From the IMG/VR virus record IMGVR_UViG_3300036832_000974, positions 24,796-88,795 of that record: DNA of 64,000 bases; one strand, 5' to 3'. The notes below the pieces were generated by a model, which worked only from the letters and a program-made list of their open reading frames with translations, made no database searches and was not told the DNA's origin. Origin of the DNA: a virus. A program made the position numbers and the translations under genes. Below, in pieces: positions 2,703 to 25,449 of this stretch; position 1 is the first letter of the stretch; every line of letters begins with the position of its first letter.

Positions 2703-5333
2703 TCAACGGAACATCATGAAGATGTAATTCGACGGCACCGACAATGTCGTATCAGCCGTAAACACCCCTCCTACCGTGCTTCCAGCAAACGTGTTCGGGG
2801 TTGACGTCGTGTCCACATTCTTGGAGTGGGCCACGAAGATCGATTGTTGAGATGCTGTCTTCGAAAGGCACCAAGGCTGGCCAGCCCCATCGGCTTGCCC
2901 GCCCTGCGAGTGCGTCCCGCAGTACGTTGTATCGAACCCAGCTATGAACGGCTCGGTGTTGTTGTTAACGCAATCGTTCCCAGTCACTGATGCGGTGTCA
3001 GCGCTGATCAGCGTTATGCATAAGCCAGCGGCGTTGGTTATGAAGTTGTTGGATATCTGCAAATTTTTGAACGGGAAACCGGATGGCGAGAACCCGCCAT
3101 CTTGAGTGGTGCCCCACACGAAGATGGCCGCTCCGTTCCACCCCGACGCACCTGCCCCGTTAGAGATAGATAACGGGTCCCAGACATGCGAGAAGTCGCC
3201 GCCTCCTACCCCCACGATTGAATTGTTGCGGACAATGATGTTGCTTGAACCTGAGCCGGCAAGGGTCTCCAGAGACGGAGTGTTGAAACTCCAGCTCATT
3301 TCAATCGGCCCATAATAATTATTGCCAAACACATTGTTCTCGATAAGGACGTTTTCATTGTAAGCAAGAATACGTCCATGGTTGTCATGGAAGCACGAGT
3401 CACGGATGATGACATTCGGAGAAGACAGCCCCGGGAACGCTATCGCCGGAAGCTGTGTGCCGGTAAGCCCAATGTACGGGGTTAGCTCCGGGACTGATGG
3501 ATAGGTCACGGTCCAGGTCCATATGCCAGTCCCCGCATTATACGACTGGGAGAATGATCCGATCGTTCTGCCGATCTCTGCATAGGTGTTCGGATCGATG
3601 AACTTGATCGTGTTGCCGACCCCTGTCGTCATCGGATATTGAAATGTCGTGTCCAGCGTGAAGCCGGTGGTTGACGTAAGAGACGTCAGGTTCTTCACCA
3701 TGAGCCCACGCATCCAGAAATCGTCATCATCTTGGAAACCAAAGTCGCTGTTCTCGATCAGAATGTTTCCGTAATTGAACGCCGAATCGGAATCGCCAAC
3801 GAACGAGACGTAACGCGGCTGCTCCCCAGATGCGAGGGCAGAATCCGGCTTCCGGGTCAGTGCGATATTACTCAGCCTCACATTCGAAGACTGCGAACCA
3901 ACTATGAGCCCGGTTCCTCCACCACCATAGCAGGCAACATTCTCGAACGTGGAGTTGGTCGCGGCCGAGCCGATATCGATGCATCCGGCAGTCTTGACGA
4001 ACAGAACAGCTTCGGTCCCATCCGGCAGATTGAAACCACCTGACAAATTGTAATAGTACAATCCATCCGAGGCGAAGTTGGAATTGAACCCGGTGCCATT
4101 TGGTCCTGTCGCAGTAGGTACAATCCCAACACGAGCGCCACCACGAAAGTCATAGGTGTAGTTGGACAGACGGTAGCCGTCCAATGTCTTGAGCGTAGGC
4201 GGGTTGGTCGGATCGGGAATGTAGTAAGAAGGATTGTTGACCGTGAACCGCTGCGATGAAACAGCTGTCATCACCGTAGGCGTCGATACATTCGTTGATG
4301 GGTTTATTCCATAGGTGAGATTATAGGTCCCCGTTCCGCCGGTCCCCGTTCCCCCGGGATAGATACGAGCCCAGCTGCCAATCGCTCCTGACGCATCATA
4401 GATGTACTGATCGTTGGCAAGCGCGCCGCTCGTCACACTGGACACTGTCAGGATGCCGCTGCCAGCATTAGGCGGCCCACCGGCAGCAATGGTGCCGGTG
4501 AACGTTGCGCCAACCACATTGTGAACAACTCCGGGGATTGCGGCGCGAAAGTCCCGGTCGAACTGAATGTCCCTCACGAGGGTCCGGTTGGTGAGACCGA
4601 CCACAAGTCCCTGAACAGCCCCAATCGTCGACGGCGTCTGATTGAAGAGGACGCGGGTCAGCGGAATGATGTGCCCCTTGGCATCGGTGGTGTGACCAGC
4701 GTCACCGATCAACGAGGTGTCATTGGCGGTCATCATAATGTTGTAATTGAACGTACTGGTGCTCCACGACGGATTGTTCAGATGATAATCGCCAGCAGCG
4801 AGATGCACCGCGGTGCCGGCAACCTTCAGGGCATTGTCTATGTTGGTGAAGTCACTACACCCTACCGCGCCATTGCAGGGCGACAGCATTACCGTTGACG
4901 TGGTGACAGGGACCTGGACCGTGAACGATATCGTGTCACCATTGGCCGCTTCGAATGATTCCGTCCGGTCCACCCCGAGCTTAGGCGCCGGGATTTGCTG
5001 CATCGGCGGACAATTGAATGGCAATGTCATGTCCGAGATCGCGGCACGCATTGGGTTGGTTTGACTCGCGCCATTCACGACCTGATAGACGTAAACCGTA
5101 TTCACGACCGCCGTTGTGTCGGTGAACGTCGCGCCCGCTGTCGTGCCGATCGTAGTGGTGGAACCCGGCACACCGAACGCCGAGCGCTGCACCGTGTTGG
5201 TCCCGGACGGTGACGATCCCCAGGACAATGCAATGTTGGTCCCCGACGGTATTGCTGACAGCGTTCCGAACGACTGCCCGAAAGCGCCGGATGTTGGGAT
5301 GACAAGGCACGCCAGCGCGAGCAGGTGTTTCAT
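2703..5333 (-). CDS. Right-handed beta-helix tail-spike-like protein with signal-like N terminus
   Basis: The 876-residue product starts at ATG 5333, chosen because it overlaps the previous stop as ATGA and follows a strong GGAGGT. The N terminus is signal-peptide-like (MKHLLALACLV, small residues, then AFGQ). Near residues 640-770 there are repeated short strands of the type N-x-x-I-R-x-N-x, for example NIIVRNNSIVG and NLQISNNFITN, the hallmark of pectate-lyase or tailspike beta-helices. A Gly/Thr-rich insert of a type common in phage fibres lies near residues 290-340. It probably binds or cuts a surface polysaccharide. A signal peptide on a spike is odd; it may simply be a hydrophobic anchor. 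Catalytic residues cannot be assigned by eye. Confidence 0.75.
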   Translation of the reverse strand: MKHLLALACLVIPTSGAFGQSFGTLSAIPSGTNIALSWGSSPSGTNTVQRSAFGVPGSTTTIGTTAGATFTDTTAVVNTVYVYQVVNGASQTNPMRAAISDMTLPFNCPPMQQIPAPKLGVDRTESFEAANGDTISFTVQVPVTTSTVMLSPCNGAVGCSDFTNIDNALKVAGTAVHLAAGDYHLNNPSWSTSTFNYNIMMTANDTSLIGDAGHTTDAKGHIIPLTRVLFNQTPSTIGAVQGLVVGLTNRTLVRDIQFDRDFRAAIPGVVHNVVGATFTGTIAAGGPPNAGSGILTVSSVTSGALANDQYIYDASGAIGSWARIYPGGTGTGGTGTYNLTYGINPSTNVSTPTVMTAVSSQRFTVNNPSYYIPDPTNPPTLKTLDGYRLSNYTYDFRGGARVGIVPTATGPNGTGFNSNFASDGLYYYNLSGGFNLPDGTEAVLFVKTAGCIDIGSAATNSTFENVACYGGGGTGLIVGSQSSNVRLSNIALTRKPDSALASGEQPRYVSFVGDSDSAFNYGNILIENSDFGFQDDDDFWMRGLMVKNLTSLTSTTGFTLDTTFQYPMTTGVGNTIKFIDPNTYAEIGRTIGSFSQSYNAGTGIWTWTVTYPSVPELTPYIGLTGTQLPAIAFPGLSSPNVIIRDSCFHDNHGRILAYNENVLIENNVFGNNYYGPIEMSWSFNTPSLETLAGSGSSNIIVRNNSIVGVGGGDFSHVWDPLSISNGAGASGWNGAAIFVWGTTQDGGFSPSGFPFKNLQISNNFITNAAGLCITLISADTASVTGNDCVNNNTEPFIAGFDTTYCGTHSQGGQADGAGQPWCLSKTASQQSIFVAHSKNVDTTSTPNTFAGSTVGGVFTADTTLSVPSNYIFMMFR

Positions 5334-6286
5334 CGGCACACCTCCAGCTTTTCGAGCCGGGATTTCAGCTCCCTTACTGCACCAACCAGCTCGGCGATCA
5401 TCCCAGGTTGCGACCACCCTCTGGGTTTTCCCTCAGTATCATACGCGACCAACCTGGACTCGACGGCTTCAACATCCTCGGCGATCAGCCCGATCTGCTG
5501 ACGATTGGAAACATCATCGTTCCGCACAAACGTCTTGGGCTGCAGCGCAGCGATGCGGTCCAGGGAGCCACCGAGCGGTGCGATGTCGTGCTTGACCCTG
5601 GCGGTCGAGGTGAGACACCCAAGCGTCGCATCGTAAGTGATGGCACCGCTGGTGCCGAAACAAACCGTGCCGAGCTGAGCCGCTGCCGTCTGAGTCATGG
5701 CCGGAACGAAGAGTTGGCCCACAAAATGAGCCGATTGAGAAGTATCTAAGGTCAAAGCCAGATTTGGGCCACCAGTGCCAAAAGCAAGTTGGCCATTACT
5801 ACGGAACGCTAGATCAGTGCCGTATGAGCCAGTAACGAGCGCTCCACCACTTCCTATGTAGCCGAAGGTCCCAAAGGGAGCGTTTGCCATCGAAAAATAG
5901 GTGTCAGCCTGCGGAGACGTCAGCACCAAGACTTGCTGCCATCCGTTCGAAATCACGCTTGGCTGGGTGCTGGACCCACCGACATTGATCCTGTCACCAA
6001 CTCCGAGCCCCTGATCGATGATGACGGCCCCGGTTGTTGGCGACGTCGATGCTGTCCCATTGGTGAAGTGAAACGGCTGCGAGAGATCAAGCGACAGCGT
6101 TGGCGGCGCCGTCCCGGTTACCTGCAAGGGAGACTGCGTAGCCGTTGCCGGACATGGTTGCAGCGCCGCTGGGGTACCTGTCGGATTGCAGAAGATGCTG
6201 AATGGCGGGACCTGACCGGGAAAAGTCTGCGCAGCCGCAGGAATGACGAACAGCGCGAGCAGCGCCGCGAGCAGGGAACGTCTCAT
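5330..6286 (-). CDS. Fibre/spike protein with C-terminal S74 intramolecular chaperone domain
   Basis: The 318-residue product starts at ATG 6286, which overlaps the upstream stop as ATGA and has GGAG six bases before it; an ATG at 6298 lacks a good site. The N terminus is signal-like (MRRSLLAALLALFVIPAAAQ). The last ~90 residues match the peptidase S74 / endosialidase chaperone family: the block STARVKHDIAPLGG, then LQPKTFVRND, IGLIAEDVE and a C-terminal helix VGAVRELKSRLEKLE. In that family the domain trimerises the fibre and then cleaves itself off. The middle part resembles tail-fibre shaft sequence. Its stop overlaps the start of the beta-helix gene, so the two are translationally coupled. 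Confidence 0.82.
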   Translation of the reverse strand: MRRSLLAALLALFVIPAAAQTFPGQVPPFSIFCNPTGTPAALQPCPATATQSPLQVTGTAPPTLSLDLSQPFHFTNGTASTSPTTGAVIIDQGLGVGDRINVGGSSTQPSVISNGWQQVLVLTSPQADTYFSMANAPFGTFGYIGSGGALVTGSYGTDLAFRSNGQLAFGTGGPNLALTLDTSQSAHFVGQLFVPAMTQTAAAQLGTVCFGTSGAITYDATLGCLTSTARVKHDIAPLGGSLDRIAALQPKTFVRNDDVSNRQQIGLIAEDVEAVESRLVAYDTEGKPRGWSQPGMIAELVGAVRELKSRLEKLEVCR

Positions 6287-7644
6287 TGGATGCTCCATCC
6301 AGCGTTCACGCCGTCATTGAAAGGCACGAGCGTGATGGCTGCATAATTGTTGCTGAGGACAAAACTTGGCAGCCCGTCGATAAGGTCCGGCGACGTGGTG
6401 GTGATCGTAATCGGGTGAGCCGCTGCTTGCCCCAAGTCCTTGAACGTCACCGGTCTGCCGGACCGGCTCGACGCCAGCGGCAGCGTGCAAGAAGCAGTCC
6501 CAGCAATGTTGCAGTTGATGATATTGTCGGTTGGGTTGACGACAATCGGTGACGCCGTCACCGCGCGCTGCTTCCTAACACCGAGCACCTGCGTCGCACT
6601 ACCGATCCGAACGTTGATGGCAGCACCGTCATTCCACACGTCGCCATCAACCGGTGACGTCGGCGCCGCACCCGAAGGAATGCTGATCCCCGATCGCGCC
6701 GCCGTGCTTGGCGATGTCCTGACCTGCCCGCCGAACCAGCTTGGCGTATCACCGGCAACGTAGACCCCCCATGAGTTGGTCGGTGCGTTGGGGGCAGGCG
6801 GCGGATCGACATAGACGCCGTACCAGTTCGTGATCGCACCGCCTTGGTTGAATCCAGTAGCAGCATAAAGGCAGCGGGCGTCGTCAATGGTGCCGCTGGC
6901 ATTGAGGTTCTGTATGCCGCCTTGCGTGGCCCACGCCTGAACAATCCTGCCCGCGCCAGTATTGTAAATAGTGCCTATGACTCCGTACGCAGTGAAGACA
7001 ATCCCGGTACCTCCCGGTTGAACCTGACCTTGAAGCGCGGTCAAACCTTGCTGGTAGTTGTAATCGCCTCCGGGATTGATGCCGAAAGATCCACCAGTGA
7101 CACCGGCGTTGCAAACCGTATCAATGTAGGGGACGACGAGAAGATACTGGGCCGTGGTCCAATCTGTAGGATTATAAAGGGCAGACTGCATGTGCAGCCT
7201 GACGGCGGACTGCGGCGCCTGATTGCCAATCGATACAGGCACATCACGAAACCACGTTGGTGCGTGATACACCCAAGCGTCAGGACTCGTGATGTTGTAG
7301 TCGGCGTGGTCGAGCTGGGTGAGCAGATTGGTTCCCGACGACAGGCTAGCAAGATCCTCGGCCAGGAGCACGAGAGCAACCCGGGCATTGCCGGAGAGCG
7401 CGAGCGCGGCGCCGCCGCTGCTCGACCCGAGCGGGCCGCGCGTCAGCGTGGTGCCGCTGCCACCGATGGTGCCGTGGCCGTACTCGTAAGCGGTGCCGTC
7501 AGAGATCGAGTAGGACACCGACGAGCCATCGGGGACCGAAGCCTGCGCGGGCGTGCGCCGCCCCGGAATCGCCGCGCCGACGGTGATGGTGCCGGTGCCG
7601 GTGGTCGGCGTCGAGAACTCGACGAGATTGAACAGTGCTGTCAT
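6283..7644 (-). CDS. Tail fibre protein with shared N-terminal anchor domain
   Basis: The 453-residue product begins with an ~110-residue domain (STPTTGTGTITVG, then RRTPAQA, YEYGHGTIG, TRGPLGSS, VALVLLAEDL) nearly the same as the start of the 1,953-residue protein encoded just upstream and related to that of the 440-residue protein at 32219-33541. This points to a common attachment module for the virion. The middle (residues ~110-330) is Gly/Tyr/Asn-rich and variable. The end (residues ~350-453) resembles a small C-terminal beta domain (VNPTDNIINCN, TFKDLG, GLPSFVLSNNYAAITLVPF) common at fibre tips. TGATG coupling joins it to the gene before it. Confidence 0.75.
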   Translation of the reverse strand: MTALFNLVEFSTPTTGTGTITVGAAIPGRRTPAQASVPDGSSVSYSISDGTAYEYGHGTIGGSGTTLTRGPLGSSSGGAALALSGNARVALVLLAEDLASLSSGTNLLTQLDHADYNITSPDAWVYHAPTWFRDVPVSIGNQAPQSAVRLHMQSALYNPTDWTTAQYLLVVPYIDTVCNAGVTGGSFGINPGGDYNYQQGLTALQGQVQPGGTGIVFTAYGVIGTIYNTGAGRIVQAWATQGGIQNLNASGTIDDARCLYAATGFNQGGAITNWYGVYVDPPPAPNAPTNSWGVYVAGDTPSWFGGQVRTSPSTAARSGISIPSGAAPTSPVDGDVWNDGAAINVRIGSATQVLGVRKQRAVTASPIVVNPTDNIINCNIAGTASCTLPLASSRSGRPVTFKDLGQAAAHPITITTTSPDLIDGLPSFVLSNNYAAITLVPFNDGVNAGWSIQ

Positions 7645-10600
7645 CAGTGATACCGCCGCGTCGAGATGTAGATGGTCACCGACCCGTCAGTCAGTCCGGT
7701 AAGGGCAGTCGCCCCAATGAATCGAACGCTCATCTGCATAGTACCAGTCGGCCCGTCCCATCCCGGGCAGAATCCATCTGCAGTGGGCATCGTCGCCTTG
7801 GCGAGGTTAACCCCGTAGTCGGCATCGGCGATACCCTTGACGTTACCCTTCGTGCCGCCCCTCACTACGGTCGTGCAGTCGAACGCCTTGAGCAGATCGG
7901 TTCCACCCGAAGTGGTGCCGACCTGCATCGTGCAGGTGCCCGCGCCGGTGAACACTCGTGCCACATCGGCAACGATACCGGTGATCTTCGAGCGCATGGG
8001 TATGGCGCCCAGTGAGATATCAACGGTTGTGACCCCGGCGGAATTGATGGAGGTGAACGGTATTGTTATGGATGTGACGCCATCGGTCAGGATGCCCTGC
8101 GAGTGCGCTATCAGCCCGCTGCCCTGAACATTCTGTCCCAGGCCAGTCGAGAGGGTCTGAAGAGCACCGAACGATGTAGGAATTTTACCGGTGTCTCCGT
8201 AGTCGTTGATCTGCTGCACAGCCCACTTGGAGTGAGGGAATGTCGATGTGGGGAACTCATCATTGGGATCGTAGGGATTCATGGAGCCATCGTAGTAGAC
8301 CGGCACACCCTGCGTTCCACCGGTGTTCGCAAAGGAATTGCCGATGGACGTCACCCCTCCAGGCTCCTGCGCGCCTAGTATCTGCACGACCGTCATCCCC
8401 TTGGACGATACAGTGCCCATGTCCCGGTCGAGAGTGTATGTCCCAACCCCTCCGCTCCCAGTTCCGTAGTTGGAAATCTGGGCGGTCTCCATCGAGTTCC
8501 CTGACCCAGGAGACCTGTAGAACCTGATCTGCCACGTAGGACCGAACCCCGGGAAGCCAGCAGCGACCGCCGTGACGTTGAGAGTCGACACCCCTCCCGT
8601 CGTCGATATAGATGCGGTGATTGGAATAACTGGATGCGAGTTCAAACTGGAAATATCAGTGCAAACTATTTTTGGTGACATTCCAACGGCTGGGTTCTCA
8701 AGAAAGCAAGCGTCTCGTGCCCCATTCATGAAAACGTTGTTGATCATGGTCAGATTGCCCGGCCACTGGATGACAACACCATCGGCTGGCATTGTGCACT
8801 GATAAGAGTTCTGCACCAGCGTCGCATTGATCTGCCCGGCGCCACCAACGGCCGTTAAGAACATGCCGCAGCTCTCTGTCTCCGCGGACGTGATGTGGAT
8901 GTTCGATGCACCATTGGCACGGATGTCAGAGAGCGTGTCGCCAGCGAAAGATGGGAAGAACAGCTCGCAGCTCCCCGACACTGGGTCACCATCAAAGCCG
9001 TAGTCCAAGTGTCCGAACACAGTGTTGAAGATGAAGAAATTCTTGATGTTGCCACCGACGATGGTTCTGAAACCGGAGTGGCCCTTGATCGACCGAACTG
9101 TGGTTCCCGACCTCGTGGTGCCAACAAGCGGCACCTTACCGGCAAAGACTTTATGATTGCCATATTGCGTGCCAGTGAAGTTGATGCTGGCGCCGCCGGG
9201 CGTCGCCGACACCTGGAACGTGTCGGTAGCGAGTCCAGTGGCGCTGACGTAGTAATTATTGCCGTGGGTAATATCGGTCGAGTACAGCGGCCCACCGACG
9301 ATGGTCGATGGCAGCGATCCGTCAGTCTGAAACACCACCGGAGTATTAGCCGCTAGTCCATGCCCGGGCCAGTGAACCACGCCGGGACTAGCGTTGGGCA
9401 TCAACGTCGCGAACGCGTCAGTGATGGTCGGGAACTGGAAGTTGTAGACCGGGAGAGCGAGGTGATAGTGGTCGGCATCAATCGGGATGGCATAGTATGT
9501 CAGGCCAGAGTTGGCATCGTCGATCTTCACGGCACGACCCATGGTCAGCCCGTGGGCCGTGTCGGTTACGACGAGGGGATTGCCAGCGGCGATGGTCACC
9601 GTCGCATTCTTGATGCCGCCCAGCACCTCGCAGGAGTCAAAAATGATCTGAGCCGCTTGAACTGTCTGCTGTATTTGGTTGCCGCACAATACAGCAGTAC
9701 TGTTATGAGCTAACACCCCAGTCGCAAACACGCACCTGTTGAAAGTGATGTTGTTGCACGGCGTCCCGCCGCCGACCTTCTCGCCCACAGCATGGTCGTT
9801 GACGCAGTCGGCAACGAATGCATATTGGCTGACGATCGCCTTCACATAGACAATCTCGAACGCGGCGGTGCCGAGACCAACGCCGACACTTGCACCCGGT
9901 TGCACGCCAGGAGACGTCCACGGGTGGTCGTTGATCATCATATCGCAGGTGAAGGTCCGATTCGTACCAGCCGTCACCGCGGCGGCAAGATGGATTGCCC
10001 CGAAGTTGTTCATCGTGTTGTCGGCGGTGATGTGGACCGTGTTCACGAGGTCGCTGAAGGTCGTGTAGTCCATGCCGATGGAGACAAAGTTGACGGCTTC
10101 GATGATGATCTGGTTGGCGCCATAGATGATGAACATCGATGGGTAGCCAGACCCCTGCCACGCGAAGCAGCTGCTGACCGTACCGCCGGATGCTGATTGA
10201 GACTGGCCGAGTATCTTGATGCTGATGCCGTTGTTGCCGCACAGGATCACTGGGTGCTTCAACATCATGACAGAAGGTGGCAGCAGCAGCGTCGCCGTTA
10301 GGCTACCGCCGTTCAGGATGGTGCCGGGGTCCTGGAACGGCAGAAGCGCGGCGTTCAGGGTAGCCGAGTCGTCAGTGGACTGATCAGCGTAGACGCCCGC
10401 CACCTTGGCGTTCCAGCCGATCGCCTCCGGGATGTACTCCCAGTGCGCGCCATCGGCGCTGGTGAATGAGTAGGGCGCCTTGGACGGGTTGATCGAGGAG
10501 ACCCTCTTGTAGTTCGCGCCGCCGCCGTCACCGACGGTGCGGTAGCCAGAGGTGTGGATCGCGTTGAGAGAGGGCGCGATGTTTGCGGCCATCGCCACGG

Positions 10601-13505
10601 TTCGCGTGTCAAAGGTCGATGCCATCAATGACGATGATGCACCGCCACCACTGCCCCTGAGCTCGTACGGGAAGATCGGAAACACACCGCTGCATATCGC
10701 TGGCGTGTCGAGCGTGATCGTCCCCGGCGAGCCCACCGCCCCGGCAGTTACGGAAGCGATCCGGGTCCCGTCAGCGATCGGCCATCGCGCGTCGTCGCCC
10801 GCATTGTAGCGCGGCGAGAAGAACGGGTCGCCCGCCGCGTAGTAGGTGGCAAGCTCGCCGCCGTTGCCGTCGCCAAGATTGACGTTAGTGACGCTGGTGC
10901 TGCCCTTCTCGAAGGTGCCGAAGAACAGCTTGAGCGGGATCACCGCGCCGGTCTTGACGAGGACAGTGTATCCCGACAGCGCGAGATCGGTGTTCGCGTT
11001 GGAAAGGAAGTTGTAGGCGTCAGAGCCGTAGCCACCCACCGTCCTGATGTTGTTCTGCTGCTGGGTCGTGATGACATAGTGATTGTCTGCACCGGTCGGG
11101 CCAGCCACAGCGGTGACGACAAAGCTCGTGCCGGTATTGATATGGTAGAGAATGTCGCCGACATCGATCCGGTACATCGCACCGACCGAAGTCTGATAGG
11201 CGCCGAAATAGCCGAACGTCATCACGTCACCAGCGTAGGATGGAGCTACTGGCGTCGCGCCGCTGTCAGTCATCGCGATGAGCGCTTCCGACGGCACCGT
11301 GATCTGCCACTCGCGACCCTGGCTGTCGACGTAACGCTTGACATATTGGGACATCGGCGTCCGAAAACCGGTCGCAATAGAAACTTCGTCCTTGTTGAAG
11401 AACTGAACGCTTCCGCCATCCGCGGGATAATAGCTTGATCGCATCGCCTCACTGGCGTGGGAGACGTCATTAAAGTTGGCATAGTTGCCAATGGTGCTGT
11501 TGAAGCGGCCACCGCCCAACAGCATGCCACCGCAGTAGTTGATGGCCTGCCTCAAGGCTGGCGTTGAAAAATTCTGCGTCGCCCCGTACTGCAAGCCACC
11601 GCGGAACGACAGCGCCGCGCCTTGGGCAGCGAGAGTTGAGATGCGGGAATGGCCAACCCAAGTCGTGCCGATGAAAGTGATCGAAGTGTAGGAAGTGGAC
11701 GTGAGGATCGATGGTGGTATGAAATTCTGCACGCCATCCTGAAGATCGATCAGCCCACCGGTGAAGACGACGCTGCTACCTACCGGTGAGCCAGCCATTA
11801 ACGTGCCAAGACGGACCGTCGACTCGCAGTAGAGCTGGTTGATCACCAGCGGACCGGAAGACATTCCGATATCGAAAATCTGATAGGAAGCGCCGCCCGA
11901 GCAGTTGTCGATCGGCCCACCAAGGATACCGTTCGCGACACCGAAATGGGTGTTAGTTAGGAAGGTGTGACTCACATTGAAATTGTTGTTGCGTAGCTCG
12001 ACGTTGCGCGACTGCGTGTGGCACACCGCGATGTGATAGACGTTCCCCCACAGATTGTTGTTGCGGATGCGGGTGAAGTCGGCGTTGCCGTCGGCGTTGG
12101 GCTTGACGCAGATGCCGACGCCGAAGCCCTCGATGCTGCATTCTTCGATCGTCACGTCAGACGACGCCCCGTCACCATACTGCGTGGTTCGTCCCGTCCA
12201 TGCAGGGTAGATGCGGTCAGGGTAGTGGTCGGTCGGCTGAGACCCGCAGTAGGCGTCGATGGTCACGCCAGCGTAGGGCGAGTGCTGCTGCAGTCCGCCG
12301 GGATTTGATCCCGACGGCGTCAATCCCGGCGCCAGCCAATCGTCGCGATTCGGCGAGAGCGGATACGGGACGAGACCTGTTTGGGTCTGAGTAGCCCACA
12401 GGAAATTTCTGCCCTTGATGCGGAAGCCGCGAAGCAGCCCCATCCGCATGCCCATGAAATTGATGCAGGGCCGATCGGTCTTCGACGGGATCAGCAGGGT
12501 GCCACCGCCAACGTAGCTGCCACGTAAATTGGCAGCAACCAGTTGCAGTGAAGTGAGACCATTCCAGCCGAGATGGATAGTCTCATCGAGCCTGAACGGC
12601 CCATCTGGCACTCTCACCACGTTGTGGTAATTCTGCAGCGCGAAGTCGACGGCAGCCTGCAGCATCGGCGCATTATCGGTGCCGGTCACTGTATCGCGCC
12701 AGCACAAGAACTTCAGGTTAGTGCCAGCCGGAACGGCGCGCGAGACCGTGATGCTGGTGTTGGTGACAACGCTGACAACGGTGGCGTCGGTCGCCATCGC
12801 GTTGGCACCCATGCTCGCCCAGTTGAAGTTGCCGATGTGCATGCCGGACACCACACCGGTGGTGTCCGAAGTGGTTATCACCGTGGTGCCGTTAGCCGTC
12901 GCCGTGATGATGCCAACACCCCAGTCCATCGTCTGGGCGCCGTCCGGCACCATGCCGAACTCACCGGCGTTGACCGGACTGGTCGAGTACATCGGCGCGA
13001 ACAGCTGCCCGCCGACCGTGACCTCGCCGTACAGCCCGAGCGTCGATGCCACCGGCTTGAAGCTTAGTGGCACTGCCTCTTGGTATGCCGGCGGCGGCCA
13101 CGTCCCCATCATGTTGCGGATGCGGACCTCGGTGACATTGGCCGGAATGGTGCCTGACGCCAGAAAGTCGGCCTTGGTGTTGAACGCCATCACCGACGAC
13201 GACAGGCTGGTGAGATCCTCGGCGAGCAGCACGAACGCCACCCGCGCGGCACCTGAGAGCACGATCGCTGCGTTGCTGTTGCTGGACCCGATCGGGCCCC
13301 GCGTCATCACCGTGCCACCGCTGCCAATGATGCCGCGCCCGTACTCGTAGTTCGATCCGTCGATGATGGAATAGGAAACCTCGGTGCCGTCAGCGACGCC
13401 AGCTTGCGACGGCGTCCGCTTGCCGGTGAGCGGCAGCCCAACGGTGAGCGAACCGGTGCCCGTCGTTGGCGTACTGAACTGAACCAGATCGACGAATGCG
13501 GACAT
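7644..13505 (-). CDS. Giant tail fibre/spike with two beta-helix modules
   Basis: The product is 1,953 residues. ATG 13505 fits the GGAGG spacing better than the adjacent ATG at 13508. Residues 1-110 are the anchor domain shared with the gene at 6283-7644. A first pectate-lyase-superfamily-like module begins near residue 185 (MVPDGAQTMDWG, then DNAPMLQAAVDFA and VVRVPDGPFRL). A second module of the same type begins near residue 1035 (VAGVYADQSTDDSATLNAAL, then LLLPPSV). The last ~110 residues form a Gly/Thr-rich tip. Two depolymerase-like modules in one chain suggest recognition of two glycans or a long spike. A third of the fibre cassette is this one gene. Enzymatic activity is unproven. Confidence 0.8.
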   Translation of the reverse strand: MSAFVDLVQFSTPTTGTGSLTVGLPLTGKRTPSQAGVADGTEVSYSIIDGSNYEYGRGIIGSGGTVMTRGPIGSSNSNAAIVLSGAARVAFVLLAEDLTSLSSSVMAFNTKADFLASGTIPANVTEVRIRNMMGTWPPPAYQEAVPLSFKPVASTLGLYGEVTVGGQLFAPMYSTSPVNAGEFGMVPDGAQTMDWGVGIITATANGTTVITTSDTTGVVSGMHIGNFNWASMGANAMATDATVVSVVTNTSITVSRAVPAGTNLKFLCWRDTVTGTDNAPMLQAAVDFALQNYHNVVRVPDGPFRLDETIHLGWNGLTSLQLVAANLRGSYVGGGTLLIPSKTDRPCINFMGMRMGLLRGFRIKGRNFLWATQTQTGLVPYPLSPNRDDWLAPGLTPSGSNPGGLQQHSPYAGVTIDAYCGSQPTDHYPDRIYPAWTGRTTQYGDGASSDVTIEECSIEGFGVGICVKPNADGNADFTRIRNNNLWGNVYHIAVCHTQSRNVELRNNNFNVSHTFLTNTHFGVANGILGGPIDNCSGGASYQIFDIGMSSGPLVINQLYCESTVRLGTLMAGSPVGSSVVFTGGLIDLQDGVQNFIPPSILTSTSYTSITFIGTTWVGHSRISTLAAQGAALSFRGGLQYGATQNFSTPALRQAINYCGGMLLGGGRFNSTIGNYANFNDVSHASEAMRSSYYPADGGSVQFFNKDEVSIATGFRTPMSQYVKRYVDSQGREWQITVPSEALIAMTDSGATPVAPSYAGDVMTFGYFGAYQTSVGAMYRIDVGDILYHINTGTSFVVTAVAGPTGADNHYVITTQQQNNIRTVGGYGSDAYNFLSNANTDLALSGYTVLVKTGAVIPLKLFFGTFEKGSTSVTNVNLGDGNGGELATYYAAGDPFFSPRYNAGDDARWPIADGTRIASVTAGAVGSPGTITLDTPAICSGVFPIFPYELRGSGGGASSSLMASTFDTRTVAMAANIAPSLNAIHTSGYRTVGDGGGANYKRVSSINPSKAPYSFTSADGAHWEYIPEAIGWNAKVAGVYADQSTDDSATLNAALLPFQDPGTILNGGSLTATLLLPPSVMMLKHPVILCGNNGISIKILGQSQSASGGTVSSCFAWQGSGYPSMFIIYGANQIIIEAVNFVSIGMDYTTFSDLVNTVHITADNTMNNFGAIHLAAAVTAGTNRTFTCDMMINDHPWTSPGVQPGASVGVGLGTAAFEIVYVKAIVSQYAFVADCVNDHAVGEKVGGGTPCNNITFNRCVFATGVLAHNSTAVLCGNQIQQTVQAAQIIFDSCEVLGGIKNATVTIAAGNPLVVTDTAHGLTMGRAVKIDDANSGLTYYAIPIDADHYHLALPVYNFQFPTITDAFATLMPNASPGVVHWPGHGLAANTPVVFQTDGSLPSTIVGGPLYSTDITHGNNYYVSATGLATDTFQVSATPGGASINFTGTQYGNHKVFAGKVPLVGTTRSGTTVRSIKGHSGFRTIVGGNIKNFFIFNTVFGHLDYGFDGDPVSGSCELFFPSFAGDTLSDIRANGASNIHITSAETESCGMFLTAVGGAGQINATLVQNSYQCTMPADGVVIQWPGNLTMINNVFMNGARDACFLENPAVGMSPKIVCTDISSLNSHPVIPITASISTTGGVSTLNVTAVAAGFPGFGPTWQIRFYRSPGSGNSMETAQISNYGTGSGGVGTYTLDRDMGTVSSKGMTVVQILGAQEPGGVTSIGNSFANTGGTQGVPVYYDGSMNPYDPNDEFPTSTFPHSKWAVQQINDYGDTGKIPTSFGALQTLSTGLGQNVQGSGLIAHSQGILTDGVTSITIPFTSINSAGVTTVDISLGAIPMRSKITGIVADVARVFTGAGTCTMQVGTTSGGTDLLKAFDCTTVVRGGTKGNVKGIADADYGVNLAKATMPTADGFCPGWDGPTGTMQMSVRFIGATALTGLTDGSVTIYISTRRYH

Positions 13506-15466
13506 CATCCCTCCAGCGCGGCCGACACCGCGTCAATCACCGCTGGCCAGTCGCGGAAACGCGGCTGCCGGAAGATCTTCATTCGCGGATACCAGATCGT
13601 GGTTTCGCCGCTGAGCCCCCACCGGAAGTCAGGATCGTAGGAAAGCAACAGCCACGTCGGCACGCCGAGCGCTCCGGCAAGATGCGCAATCACGGTGTCG
13701 ACGGTGATGACGAGATCAAGCGCCTTGATCGCCGCCGCGGTGGTGGCGAAGCTTTCAAACTGCCCGGTGTTCTCCAGCGAGAAAAACGGCCCGTGCTTCT
13801 TGACCAGTGGCGCCAGCAGCTTCTGCGGAATGTCGCGGGTGTAGGGCCGCTCGCTGGTGGCGCTGCCGACGCCGCACAGCCCGATCCTCGCCTCGTTCAT
13901 CGGGTGGCGACCGAACGCAAACGAATGGTTGCCCTGGCCGCGCCAGTTGTCGACCAGCATCGGATCGACCTTGAGATAGGGCGCATCAATCCGAATGAGA
14001 TCCTCGTCGGCATCAAGCACGCTCGGCACCGACGGCAACGGCAGGTGGAAACCATAGCGCGGCAGCGATCGCCGCAGCCGGTGGATTGCGTACTGCGGCA
14101 GGCCGAGCAGACCGCGCGAATCCTCGAACAGCTCGTAAAGCTCGGGCTGCACCTCAAGAACAGCGTTCGGCGCACGCTGCAACACGTAGCGCATGAACCG
14201 CGCAAACATGATGGTATCGCCATAGCCCTGTTCCGACCAGATCAGCACCGGCGCTTGCGTCGGCGTGCCGTCCCACGGCGGGCAATCGTGCACGCGGTTT
14301 GCCCCGATCAGATGCGGATGCGGCTGGCCACTGCGCAGCTCGTAGCCCTTCCAGCCCTGCCGCCAGCGACCAGCTTGCAGATCGTGCAACGCTCGCACGT
14401 GCAGGGTCGGCTTGTGCTCTGGATTGATCCGCAGATTGGTCTCGATCAGCGCCGCCGCCTTGTCGGTGCGCTGCATCAGCTGCTCGTAATGCGCCACCAG
14501 CAGCCGCGACATCAGGTCGTTCGGATCGCGCTCGATCACCCGGCTGAACCGGGCGATTTCGCGGTCGAACATCTGATCGTCCTGGCGGATGTCCGCGACC
14601 TCATCGAGATTGTTGACGCTCCACGGCTTGCCGTCACTAGCGCCCTCCTCGGGAACGCACAGCATCATGATCGACATCAGCACGCCGAAGATGTTGCGCT
14701 TCTCGCCGCGGAAGTTGCCGGGATTGAAGTGATACGGCCGGTGCCAATACATGCGATAGCCGTACTCGACCAGCTGCGCGATCAGCGCTTCGGACAGGTC
14801 CGGATCCTCGTTCTCGATGTAGATGATCGGCCGGCAGCGCTTGATGGTCTGCTCGGCGCCGCGCAGCACCTGCAGCTCATGGCGATCGACATCGATCTTG
14901 ATGAACTGCAGCCGCTGCAGGCCGAGGCTGTCGATCGTCATGCAGTTGATTTCAAAATCGCCAGTGTTGATCTCAGGGCGGCAGTAGGCGTGCAACGCGT
15001 CCTGCTTTGACACCTTGATGGTGCCGGTATGGTCGCTCGCCGCACACGGGATCACCCGCGCCTGCCGCAGATTGTTGTTGGCGAGGTTCGACATCAGCAG
15101 CGGCACGTTGGTCGGCGACGCCTCGAATGCAATCACTTGCCCGGTCCATCCGACCAGCTTCGCCATCGGCACCGTGAATGCGCCGATGTTGGCGCCGACG
15201 TCGATGGCAACATGGCCGGGCCGCAAGCACTTCTTGAAGACGACGACCTCGCCCTCAGAGTATTCGCCATAGGTCGCCAGCGAGAGCCCGACCAGCTCGT
15301 CCTCGTCATAGATCGAGAAGGTGCCGTGGCGGGCCTCGATCTTGCGCGGGGAGAAGAACGTGGTCGGCAGTGGCTCGGGCTTCTGTCCCGGCCCTGGCAA
15401 CACCCCCATGGTGGGGATATCGAACACCGCGCCGCCGTTGACATACTCGACCTGTGGTTCCGACAT
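13505..15466 (-). CDS. FkbM-type methyltransferase fused to TPR/GT9-like glycosyltransferase
   Basis: The 653-residue product starts at ATG 15466, with AAGG four bases upstream; a GTG at 15487 has no ribosome site. Residues 35-260 look like an FkbM SAM-dependent methyltransferase: IDVGANIGAFT at 88-98 (SAM motif I), FEASP at 114-118 and IKIDVDRHE at 189-197. Residues ~300-380 are TPR-like helices (DPNDLMSRLLVAHYEQ, GRWRQGWKGYELRSG). Residues 395-653 match TPR-linked GT9/heptosyltransferase-like proteins: SEQGYGDTIMFARF at 411-424, VDTVIAHLAGALGVPTW at 589-605, WYPRMKIFRQ near 625-634. It leads the fibre cassette behind a terminator. It may decorate fibres or alter host surface sugar; substrate unknown. 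Confidence 0.83.
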   Translation of the reverse strand: MSEPQVEYVNGGAVFDIPTMGVLPGPGQKPEPLPTTFFSPRKIEARHGTFSIYDEDELVGLSLATYGEYSEGEVVVFKKCLRPGHVAIDVGANIGAFTVPMAKLVGWTGQVIAFEASPTNVPLLMSNLANNNLRQARVIPCAASDHTGTIKVSKQDALHAYCRPEINTGDFEINCMTIDSLGLQRLQFIKIDVDRHELQVLRGAEQTIKRCRPIIYIENEDPDLSEALIAQLVEYGYRMYWHRPYHFNPGNFRGEKRNIFGVLMSIMMLCVPEEGASDGKPWSVNNLDEVADIRQDDQMFDREIARFSRVIERDPNDLMSRLLVAHYEQLMQRTDKAAALIETNLRINPEHKPTLHVRALHDLQAGRWRQGWKGYELRSGQPHPHLIGANRVHDCPPWDGTPTQAPVLIWSEQGYGDTIMFARFMRYVLQRAPNAVLEVQPELYELFEDSRGLLGLPQYAIHRLRRSLPRYGFHLPLPSVPSVLDADEDLIRIDAPYLKVDPMLVDNWRGQGNHSFAFGRHPMNEARIGLCGVGSATSERPYTRDIPQKLLAPLVKKHGPFFSLENTGQFESFATTAAAIKALDLVITVDTVIAHLAGALGVPTWLLLSYDPDFRWGLSGETTIWYPRMKIFRQPRFRDWPAVIDAVSAALEG

Positions 15467-15487
15467 ATGACCTTGTCCCTGACGCAC

Positions 15488-15511
15488 AAAAAAACCGGCT
15501 CAAAGGCCGGT
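15488..15511 (-). terminator. Rho-independent terminator between tail block and fibre cassette
   Basis: Read on the minus strand, a 6-bp GC-rich stem ACCGGC/GCCGGT (15506-15511 and 15494-15499) with a six-base loop is followed by seven T residues (15494-15488). It stands 29 bases after the stop of the gene at 15541-15915 and 22 bases before the FkbM-GT start. It should reduce read-through from the tail operon into the fibre cassette. Confidence 0.85.
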
Positions 15512-15540
15512 CGAATGTCACAGATTGAGTTTGAGCTAAG

Positions 15541-15915
15541 TCATTGAGACGGTATGCGTATGTCAAAAGGCGTGAGCGTGAAGGTGTTCCCGGCGGTGAC
15601 CACTTGGGTTGCGCTCAACGTCCCGTGCGCGTGCAGGGTGCCTGCGGCATAGACCGCCCACCATGACGCCGTGCCGGACGTGGTAATGGTGCCGTCGCTG
15701 ACCGCCGTCGCCGTCACCCGGCGCCCGTTGGGCGTTCCAGCCGATGGCGCGCCGAACACCGCGCCAGCGCCCCAGCTCTTGAAGCCAAGCAGGCCGGTGG
15801 TTGCCGCGATCGCGATCGTGGTCGGCTCAGCCGAACAGACCGACAAGAATGCGCTTTCGGTGTCGAGGACATTGAGACCGAAGTCGAGGACACGATCTTC
15901 AAGCGAAGCAGCCAT
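15541..15915 (-). CDS. Small Ala/Thr/Gly-rich virion-associated protein, unknown
   Basis: The product has 124 residues and starts at ATG 15915 with AGGAG ten bases upstream. It is rich in Ala, Thr and Gly, lacks charged helices, and the C-terminal half looks like short beta strands (GTASWWAVYAAGTLHAHG, FTLTPFDIRIPSQ). No family was recognised. It follows the DUF3606 gene and ends just before a strong terminator, so it is probably the last gene of the tail operon. A minor tail or fibre-cap role is a guess from position. Confidence 0.7.
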   Translation of the reverse strand: MAASLEDRVLDFGLNVLDTESAFLSVCSAEPTTIAIAATTGLLGFKSWGAGAVFGAPSAGTPNGRRVTATAVSDGTITTSGTASWWAVYAAGTLHAHGTLSATQVVTAGNTFTLTPFDIRIPSQ

Positions 15916-23542: not shown

Positions 23543-25449
23543 CCGACGAAGGTGAGCTGCTCTGCGAGCTGAGCCACCATCGCATCGATGGCTGGCTTGT
23601 AGCGCGCGCTCATGGTGGTGATGCGCTTCAAGACCGGAGGCTCTTCGGCCGCGAAGCTGACAGTGAGATGGCCCAGCCGGATCTCTTCGGCGCTGTTGAG
23701 GTTGCCTTGGAAGCTGACCTTGTAGCCGAGGATCTGCTGCTGCGCCGTGAGCTGGCCAAGGAAGTTGGCGATCGTCTCTTCGATGTTCGCCACGGTTTGA
23801 CGATCGATGTTGGTTCGGCCAAGATAGGTGCGCAACGCCGGCATTAAACTCAAGTGAATATAGTCGCGCCCTCTTTTCACATTATACATTCTCCAGAGTT
23901 CATCATCTCCCATATTATCAGTGGCAATGAGGATAAACCCACCAGAACTAATTGCCGTTTCCACACCCACCAATCCGCGCACCATGACACCGAGGTTTGC
24001 TGCCAGCAGCAGCTGGCCTTCGGTAGCGCCGTCGGTGAGCGAGAACGCGATGCTGCGCGCCGGCCCGACGATGCCCTGCACCGCGCGGTTGGCAAACGAG
24101 TGGAACGGAAAGCCGGTGCGGAAGTCCTCCGCGACCATGCAGCCCGCCGCACGCGGCGCCAGCGGCATCACCATGATGTTGCCGCTTGCGGGATCAATCA
24201 CCTTGCAGCCACCGGACAGACCGATCAGCCGCTGGCTGTTCAACGTGTCGCGCCAGTTCTCATCAGCAATGGTCGAGGTGCCAGAGCTTTCCACGATCGC
24301 ATGCGCAATCAGGGTGTCGAGCACGCCGGTCAGCTCGGCACAAACCGGATTGGCACCAAGCGCCATGGTGGCGGTGAGTGTGCAGTCGGCTGCCACCTGC
24401 GCATCGACGCCACCGGTGAGATGCGGTGGCCACGACGCGCCGGTCACGGTCGATCCGATGGTGAAGCTGTTGCCAGCCACGCCGGGCATCTGTGCAGTGA
24501 TATTGAGCGCGAATAGCGTACCCAGCACCTTCTCATAGCTGCACAGCCCAATGTTGGGATCGGCCTGCGCGGTGGTGCCTTCCAGATACGCCACAAGGTT
24601 ATCGAGCGTGTCTGACAGGTTGGCGCCAAGCTTGACCTGATGCGCCGCGGGCGTCCCGGTCGCGGCAATGAAGGTGACGTCCTGCGAGTTGAGGGTAATC
24701 TTGGATCCGACCCCGGGCATGCCCTGGAACAGGATCTGGCCGGTAGCCGCCTGTGCTTCCTGCGCTTCGCCGTCGTGCGCTGGCAGCGTCGCGGTCGGTG
24801 CCACCGTGAACCACGCACCCCAGCTGTCGATGAAGATATCGCGATCGTGGATCTCGCCATTAGCGTCGGCAACCGCGTGCGCCTGCGGCAGCACCACGTT
24901 GGCACCGTTGGTCTCGCCGCCGCCGAGCCCGAACGTCACCGTGTAAGTCTGGCCAGGGATGTAGCCAACACCGACAATATCGGTCAGCAGGGTATCGAGT
25001 GAGTTCGCCATCTGCCCGGTGTAGCCGGGCGCGATGATAATCCGCGGCGTGCAGTACAGCGTGTTAGGCGCCTTCAAGAACGCATGCACCCCGGTGCCCT
25101 GCACGCTGTTGCCCATGATCCGCGCGATGGTCTGCTGCAGTTTGAGGTTAGCGTCGCTCTGGCTGCCGTAGTCGGTGCGCACGATCACCAGCTGAGCCGC
25201 GATCTCAAAGTCCGCCAGCTGGTCATTGATTGCATCAATAGCATCTGGGATGTAACCGTCTGTGCCGAGCTTCTTGAGGGTAGGTAGGTCGTTCGAGAAG
25301 ACGAGGACAGGCGTGTCGAGCGGAAAGATGGTCGGATCAGCCTGCGCGGCCGGGCCGATGATTCCCACCACGTCCATGTTGGCGCCGAGGATCGGCTGGG
25401 GTTGATCGTCAACTTGTATAAACTGCAGGCCAAACGTGGGGTTCGCCAT
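23539..25449 (-). CDS. Contractile tail sheath protein with inserted beta domain
   Basis: The 636-residue product is a sheath (P2 FI-like). The N terminus has DMVVGIIGPAA-type and PLDTPVLVFSNDLPTLKKLGTDG segments; the C terminus has YIHLSLMPALRTYLGRTNIDR, VANIEETIANFLGQL and a final strand (LTVSFAAEEPPVLKRITT). Residues ~235-347 are an insertion (GSKITLNSQDVTF, QVKLGANLSDTLDNLVAYLEG, MPGVAGNSFTI) that resembles the insert in the head decoration protein at 41477-42346. The insert probably faces outward. GGAG precedes ATG 25449. Confidence 0.9.
   Translation of the reverse strand: MANPTFGLQFIQVDDQPQPILGANMDVVGIIGPAAQADPTIFPLDTPVLVFSNDLPTLKKLGTDGYIPDAIDAINDQLADFEIAAQLVIVRTDYGSQSDANLKLQQTIARIMGNSVQGTGVHAFLKAPNTLYCTPRIIIAPGYTGQMANSLDTLLTDIVGVGYIPGQTYTVTFGLGGGETNGANVVLPQAHAVADANGEIHDRDIFIDSWGAWFTVAPTATLPAHDGEAQEAQAATGQILFQGMPGVGSKITLNSQDVTFIAATGTPAAHQVKLGANLSDTLDNLVAYLEGTTAQADPNIGLCSYEKVLGTLFALNITAQMPGVAGNSFTIGSTVTGASWPPHLTGGVDAQVAADCTLTATMALGANPVCAELTGVLDTLIAHAIVESSGTSTIADENWRDTLNSQRLIGLSGGCKVIDPASGNIMVMPLAPRAAGCMVAEDFRTGFPFHSFANRAVQGIVGPARSIAFSLTDGATEGQLLLAANLGVMVRGLVGVETAISSGGFILIATDNMGDDELWRMYNVKRGRDYIHLSLMPALRTYLGRTNIDRQTVANIEETIANFLGQLTAQQQILGYKVSFQGNLNSAEEIRLGHLTVSFAAEEPPVLKRITTMSARYKPAIDAMVAQLAEQLTFVG

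Follow-up and report, generated by a model that had tools for sequence, protein, structure and literature searches.

An FkbM methyltransferase, TPR-like and glycosyltransferase fusion conserved in phage fibre loci, with a proposed role in virion glycosylation

Here we describe a phage gene in which an FkbM methyltransferase, a TPR-like helical stretch and a glycosyltransferase-like domain are joined in one polypeptide. The gene keeps both folds and both sets of active-site motifs, is under purifying selection, and is tightly linked to fibre genes and to the gene of a small virion-type protein, named S124. It lies in a window of 64,000 nucleotides (positions 24,796 to 88,795 of IMG/VR record IMGVR_UViG_3300036832_000974), part of an 88,795-base uncultured virus that carries terminase and tail sheath genes and is probably a contractile-tailed phage. 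We lean, with limited confidence, towards a role in the glycosylation of virion fibres or neck with methylation of the sugar, which would take place in the cytoplasm with a host-supplied sugar, in the manner of the bacterial enzyme FlmG.

Both enzyme families, phage virion glycosylation and fusions between glycosyltransferases and methyltransferases are already known. As far as our searches go, three things are new: a phage gene of this three-part make-up is conserved, it is paired with S124, and it has spread to differing phage backbones. In the literature that we read, the only phage virion proteins described as glycosylated are the capsid and tail tube of mycobacteriophages (PMC11256854, PMC12619734). 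Literature searches joining FkbM, phage, glycosyltransferase and tail fibre gave no description of such a module, and those combining FkbM with adhesins and type I secretion gave no relevant paper. The phages that carry the fusion may put sugars on their own fibres, as bacteria do on flagella and adhesins. If true, this would tie phage fibres to the way in which bacteria glycosylate flagella and giant adhesins, and it would provide a simple system in which to test how phages alter the structures by which they touch the host.

The fusion gene and its protein

The gene is an open reading frame of 653 codons on the minus strand (Table 1). The initial annotation had placed a 653-residue gene in the same interval, and the frame stands; its strand is now given as minus, a plus-strand reading yielding an antisense frame only. 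This antisense frame (13496-15010, plus strand, 504 aa) is open, most likely as an effect of high GC content.

Reading with the fusion, the gene order is tape measure, late-control-D-like tail protein (a PHROG tail protein), S124, terminator-like hairpin, fusion, and four fibre-type genes. A terminator had been proposed beside the fusion gene, and indeed one well-placed hairpin with a T-tract is found there, although the count of such sites in the region does not rise above that of shuffled sequences. The four fibre genes had been called giant, which overstates three proteins of 453, 322 and 904 aa standing beside one of 1954 aa. The stop codon of the fusion overlaps the start of the first of them in an ATGA, which suggests translational coupling, and a similar stop/start overlap exists in the relatives L014, L016 and L017. 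Genes for nucleotide-sugar synthesis were not recognised in the record, as read by eye rather than by full annotation, so the sugar donor must come from the host.

Table 1. Features of the fibre locus (window coordinates)
Feature	Position	Strand	Remarks
S124, 124-aa virion-type protein, candidate acceptor or adaptor	15541..15915	-	PHROG virion structural families; linkage; fold
Terminator-like hairpin and T-tract	15493..15512	-	between S124 and fusion gene; consensus match only
FkbM-TPR-GT fusion gene	13505..15466	-	ATG at 15466; alternative GTG at 15487
FkbM methyltransferase domain	14642..15349	-	aa about 40-275; SAM motif DVGANIG, KIDVDRHE; fold match 2py6
TPR-like helical stretch	14333..14575	-	aa about 298-378; five helices in model
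GT9-like GT-B glycosyltransferase domain	13508..14266	-	aa about 401-653; motifs EQGYGD and VDTVIAHLAGAL
ATGA stop/start overlap, fusion gene to 1954-aa fibre gene	13505..13508	-	
1954-aa fibre-type gene	7644..13508	-	no Pfam or PHROG match
453-aa fibre-type gene	6283..7644	-	N-terminus resembles that of the 1954-aa gene, by inspection
322-aa tail fibre gene	5330..6298	-	Peptidase_S74 fibre chaperone domain
904-aa fibre/tailspike-type gene	2703..5417	-	weak beta-helix match

On profile scores, the N-terminus is firmly assigned to the FkbM family, as first proposed, with 77.8 bits for PF05050 (cut-off 22.7) and 95.4 for TIGR01444 (cut-off 37.7). The motif IDVGANIGAFT, pointed out in the initial annotation, lies in this domain, and the glycosyltransferase motif VDTVIAHLAGALGVPTW lies in the C-terminal one. 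The latter had been described as GT9-like. It scores 18.5 bits against PF01075, under the 22-bit cut-off and over aa 580-611 only (GTG numbering), and it is for this reason termed GT9-like here and not filed as GT9. Structure prediction, a check suggested at the outset, gives an AlphaFold model of mean pLDDT 78 and pTM 0.67, in which the FkbM part finds its best PDB fold match in 2py6 (E 2.9e-7), and the GT-B fold of the C-terminal part matches the GT9 structures 3tov_A (E 8.6e-6) and 1psw (E 2.6e-5). A PDB sequence search with the glycosyltransferase alignment gave no significant match.

As to the TPR helices, also proposed initially, Pfam TPR models do not match the protein, but the model places a short stretch of five helices at aa 299-378, ahead of the glycosyltransferase domain, and predicted viral TPR proteins align with the model across about 380 columns; "TPR-like" is therefore a fair wording. 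Among the viral structures listed, none is a good match over the full 653-residue alignment, so no counterpart of the three-part architecture came to light in that library. The protein has no strongly hydrophobic segment.

Spread among phages and pairing with S124

Viral relatives were gathered by IMG/VR scans, with the FkbM alignment first and the full alignment next. The fusion is not unique to the phage of the window: contigs long enough carry it at 48-88% identity, with the exceptions of L025 and the remote L027, and about 20 distinct uncultured phage lineages were counted, several contigs being near-copies. Since the same fusion is found on so many contigs, a sequencing or assembly artefact is ruled out as its origin. 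A survey of fibre loci for linked FkbM and glycosyltransferase genes, recommended with the initial annotation, shows the fusion kept beside fibre genes in these lineages. In a quick tree, 21 phage proteins group by their FkbM domains into a single clade (SH-aLRT 98). Almost every phage relative has the motifs EQGxGD and VDTxxAHLxGA of the glycosyltransferase, together with GANIG and KIDxDxxE of the FkbM domain; a few distant members depart from one of the glycosyltransferase motifs. Each domain is under purifying selection, with dN/dS of 0.06-0.29 over the whole gene and per domain, the most distant pairs being near synonymous saturation. Among isolated phages, megablast of the region found no match, and tblastn of the enzyme found single-domain relatives only (23-56%).

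The first reading held sugar-modifying enzymes to be rare inside virion operons. This proves too strong, because TPR-glycosyltransferases also occur in the head and packaging regions of other phages. An AT-rich phage carries one without FkbM between the small and large terminase genes (L004 7927-9147; L005 4376-5596). In a podovirus (L008 11305-14738, MW202512), a TPR-glycosyltransferase, an annotated "fkbm family methyltransferase" and a galT-like glycosyltransferase stand downstream of the major capsid protein. Furthermore, one phage has, besides the fusion, an FkbM gene standing alone upstream of its capsid gene (L125 312-998).

The linkage with S124 is seen from both sides. A search that began with S124 gave 26 loci. 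In one of them the contig breaks off within S124; all 25 others have FkbM or the fusion downstream, at a distance of about 0.05-2.2 kb. When the enzyme was searched first, S124 stood upstream in 22 of 22 loci, L025 being left out. The pair recurs on varied backbones, with a P2 GpU-like protein (L129), a TerL_nuclease and a Phage_connect_1 connector (L127), a Gp13-like capsid protein (L125) or a baseplate-wedge type (L122). In one further locus, a weakly GT9-like gene and a DUF5672 gene lie immediately upstream of S124, making three sugar-transfer-type genes around it (L141 5573-7573). HNH-like or homing-type frames lie between S124 and the fusion in L002 (8078-9829), L003 (9028-9825), L013 (2984-3481) and L122 (3311-3841), and are absent in the window.

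Two isolated roseophages carry an S124 relative (43-45% identity) beside fibre genes with no such enzyme adjoining. An invariable pairing is thus ruled out for distant relatives, and S124 does not generally need the enzyme.

S124 is modelled with a pLDDT of 93.5. All nine of its top PDB hits come from tailed viruses, and most are neck, connector or fibre proteins, among them the Sf14 neck, the Bas63 connector, the tail fibres of Agrobacterium phage 7-7-1 and GP4 fiber I; their significance is modest, with a best E of 2.3e-3 and a TM, normalised by query, of 0.42-0.59. The S124 of the window matched nothing in Pfam, Gp80/GP4 fiber I (PF23140) included, and of 25 relatives three match PF23140 weakly (best E 0.002). 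Gp80 was rejected as an identity and S124 is not filed under it, because the profile comparison with the Gp80-like protein of L025 is insignificant. In L123, L127, L136 and L137, the S124 domain also opens downstream fibre-type genes. S124 and the fibres have the highest Ser and Thr content among the virion genes tested, S124 itself ranking first at 24%.

Relatives in bacterial operons

A scan of bacterial genomes gave 80 loci at 32-45% identity; both active-site signatures are also seen in bacterial homologues. Fusions of FkbM with a TPR-glycosyltransferase account for 12 of the loci; the phage order is seen in two (L055, L070), the reverse in the other ten. A further 23 or so have a TPR-glycosyltransferase as a near neighbour, which brings the fused or adjacent cases to about 35 of 80; the seven bacterial genomes tested have 1-4 such genes each, and the chance of one within 10 kb is, as a rough estimate, about 1-2%. 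The bacterial fusions are scattered over a quick tree, with 8 changes, which suggests repeated origins of the fusion.

In Campylobacterota, the order FkbM, TPR-glycosyltransferase, ABC transporter and HlyD recurs (L006, L088, L090, L097, L099, L105), and those contigs that show what lies upstream of it have a giant RTX or adhesin-like gene there (L006, L090, L097, L099). In L070, type I secretion genes are followed by a fused FkbM-TPR-glycosyltransferase, then by another TPR-glycosyltransferase and a probable surface protein. From these neighbourhoods, the pair repeatedly accompanies long adhesive proteins. The Campylobacterota arrangement, accompanied where visible by SapC and a giant RTX adhesin, is a candidate adhesin glycosylation cassette in its own right (L006 5288-12043, with L088, L090, L097, L099 and L105). 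A search for flagellin motifs near the bacterial homologues found none.

Proposed function, alternatives and known systems

The activity, sugar, acceptor, order of reactions and benefit that we propose would be as follows. The fusion would be a soluble two-enzyme protein, made late along with tail and fibre proteins. Its GT-B domain would take a sugar from a host-made nucleotide sugar and transfer it to Ser or Thr of a virion protein; the likeliest acceptor would be S124, the putative fibre/neck adaptor encoded next to it, or else the fibres whose translation follows straight on from the fusion. The TPR-like helices would hold the acceptor, as in FlmG. The N-terminal FkbM domain would then O-methylate the attached sugar; methylation of the sugar is likelier than that of the protein, because FkbM genes and methyltransferase-fused glycosyltransferases are recorded in flagellin islands (PMC4875605). 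The phage might benefit through a change in receptor binding, through stability, or because exposed fibres are protected. That S124 is the main acceptor is only tentatively suggested. Equally speculative is a broader proposal, in which S124 and the fusion would constitute a dedicated mobile glyco-module that sets a methylated sugar on the S124 domain and on the fibres beginning with it, and moves as one cassette between unrelated tailed phages, in parallel to the glycosylation of bacterial flagellins and adhesins.

The target could instead be another virion protein (tube, sheath or capsid), or a host flagellin or adhesin. FlmG does act on flagellin (PMC7591256), and the mycobacteriophage targets named in the accounts cited above are capsid and tail tube. 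We consider this rather unlikely, as S124 and fibre genes are common to the carriers while backbone genes differ, and Ser and Thr content peaks in S124 and the fibres.

A somewhat more doubtful option is that a host surface polysaccharide is modified during infection, for example by methyl-sugar capping, with the result that rival phages are excluded or progeny kept off debris. GT9 enzymes include LPS heptosyltransferases, the glycosyltransferase fold matches 1psw, and one bacterial FkbM relative weakly matches RfbT of V. cholerae. Against it stand the tail and fibre location of the operon with its ATGA, the strict pairing with a virion protein, the TPR-like acceptor region and a sequence devoid of strongly hydrophobic segments. 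The initial annotation had left fibres and host surface side by side as targets of a possible adhesin-modification module; the module holds up as an idea, given the fibre and S124 linkage and the bacterial adhesin operons, but the host surface has less support, because the protein is soluble, its operon late, and its gene coupled to a fibre start codon.

It is improbable that the fusion is mainly a fibre assembly chaperone or a virion component that keeps its enzyme folds and is no longer an enzyme. The TPR-like helices and the strict S124 and fibre linkage would fit such a role too, whereas both active-site signatures persist in relatives down to 48% identity and in bacterial homologues. Hypermodification of the phage DNA with sugar and methyl groups against host nucleases, a kind of role often given to phage glycosyltransferases (discussed in PMC12619734), is very improbable in view of the late tail operon, the TPR-like region, the adhesin operons of the bacterial homologues, and a fusion with no base-modification partner adjoining.

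Returning to glycosylation of fibres or neck, the nearest characterised protein would be FlmG of Caulobacter crescentus, compared here by its published description. It is a TPR and GT-B flagellin O-glycosyltransferase whose TPR part binds the acceptor (PMC7591256). Like the phage protein it is soluble, with a C-terminal GT-B domain, and it acts on a filament-forming protein in the cytoplasm; it differs in its longer TPR part and in having no methyltransferase domain, whereas the phage protein has an N-terminal FkbM domain and its gene lies in a fibre locus. Flagellin glycosylation islands, where FkbM genes and methyltransferase-GT41 fusions are recorded (PMC4875605; PMC5109656), likewise bring together sugar transfer and methylation in one protein or locus for a surface filament; their enzymes are of GT41 and serve bacterial flagella, while the window has a GT9-like domain and phage fibres.

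The Arcobacter plasmid CP146529 (L006), with its operon of SapC, FkbM, TPR-glycosyltransferase and type I secretion, shares the FkbM subfamily of the phage gene (about 37% identity) and its kind of TPR-glycosyltransferase, and both lie beside a very long adhesive protein, the giant RTX adhesin. There, the two enzymes are separate genes, the adhesin is a secreted bacterial one and the function is putative. Bacterial TPR-glycosyltransferase-FkbM fusions (L007 from Niveispirillum, L038-L041 and others) do have both domains in one polypeptide, but mostly in the opposite order, with longer TPR arrays and scattered in the tree. Finally, PMC11256854 and PMC12619734 cite work on mycobacteriophages (Freeman et al. 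2023) in which phage glycosyltransferases are described as decorating the phage's own structural proteins; the targets there are capsid and tail tube, and the citing accounts, as read here, mention neither an FkbM-TPR-glycosyltransferase fusion nor a linkage to S124.
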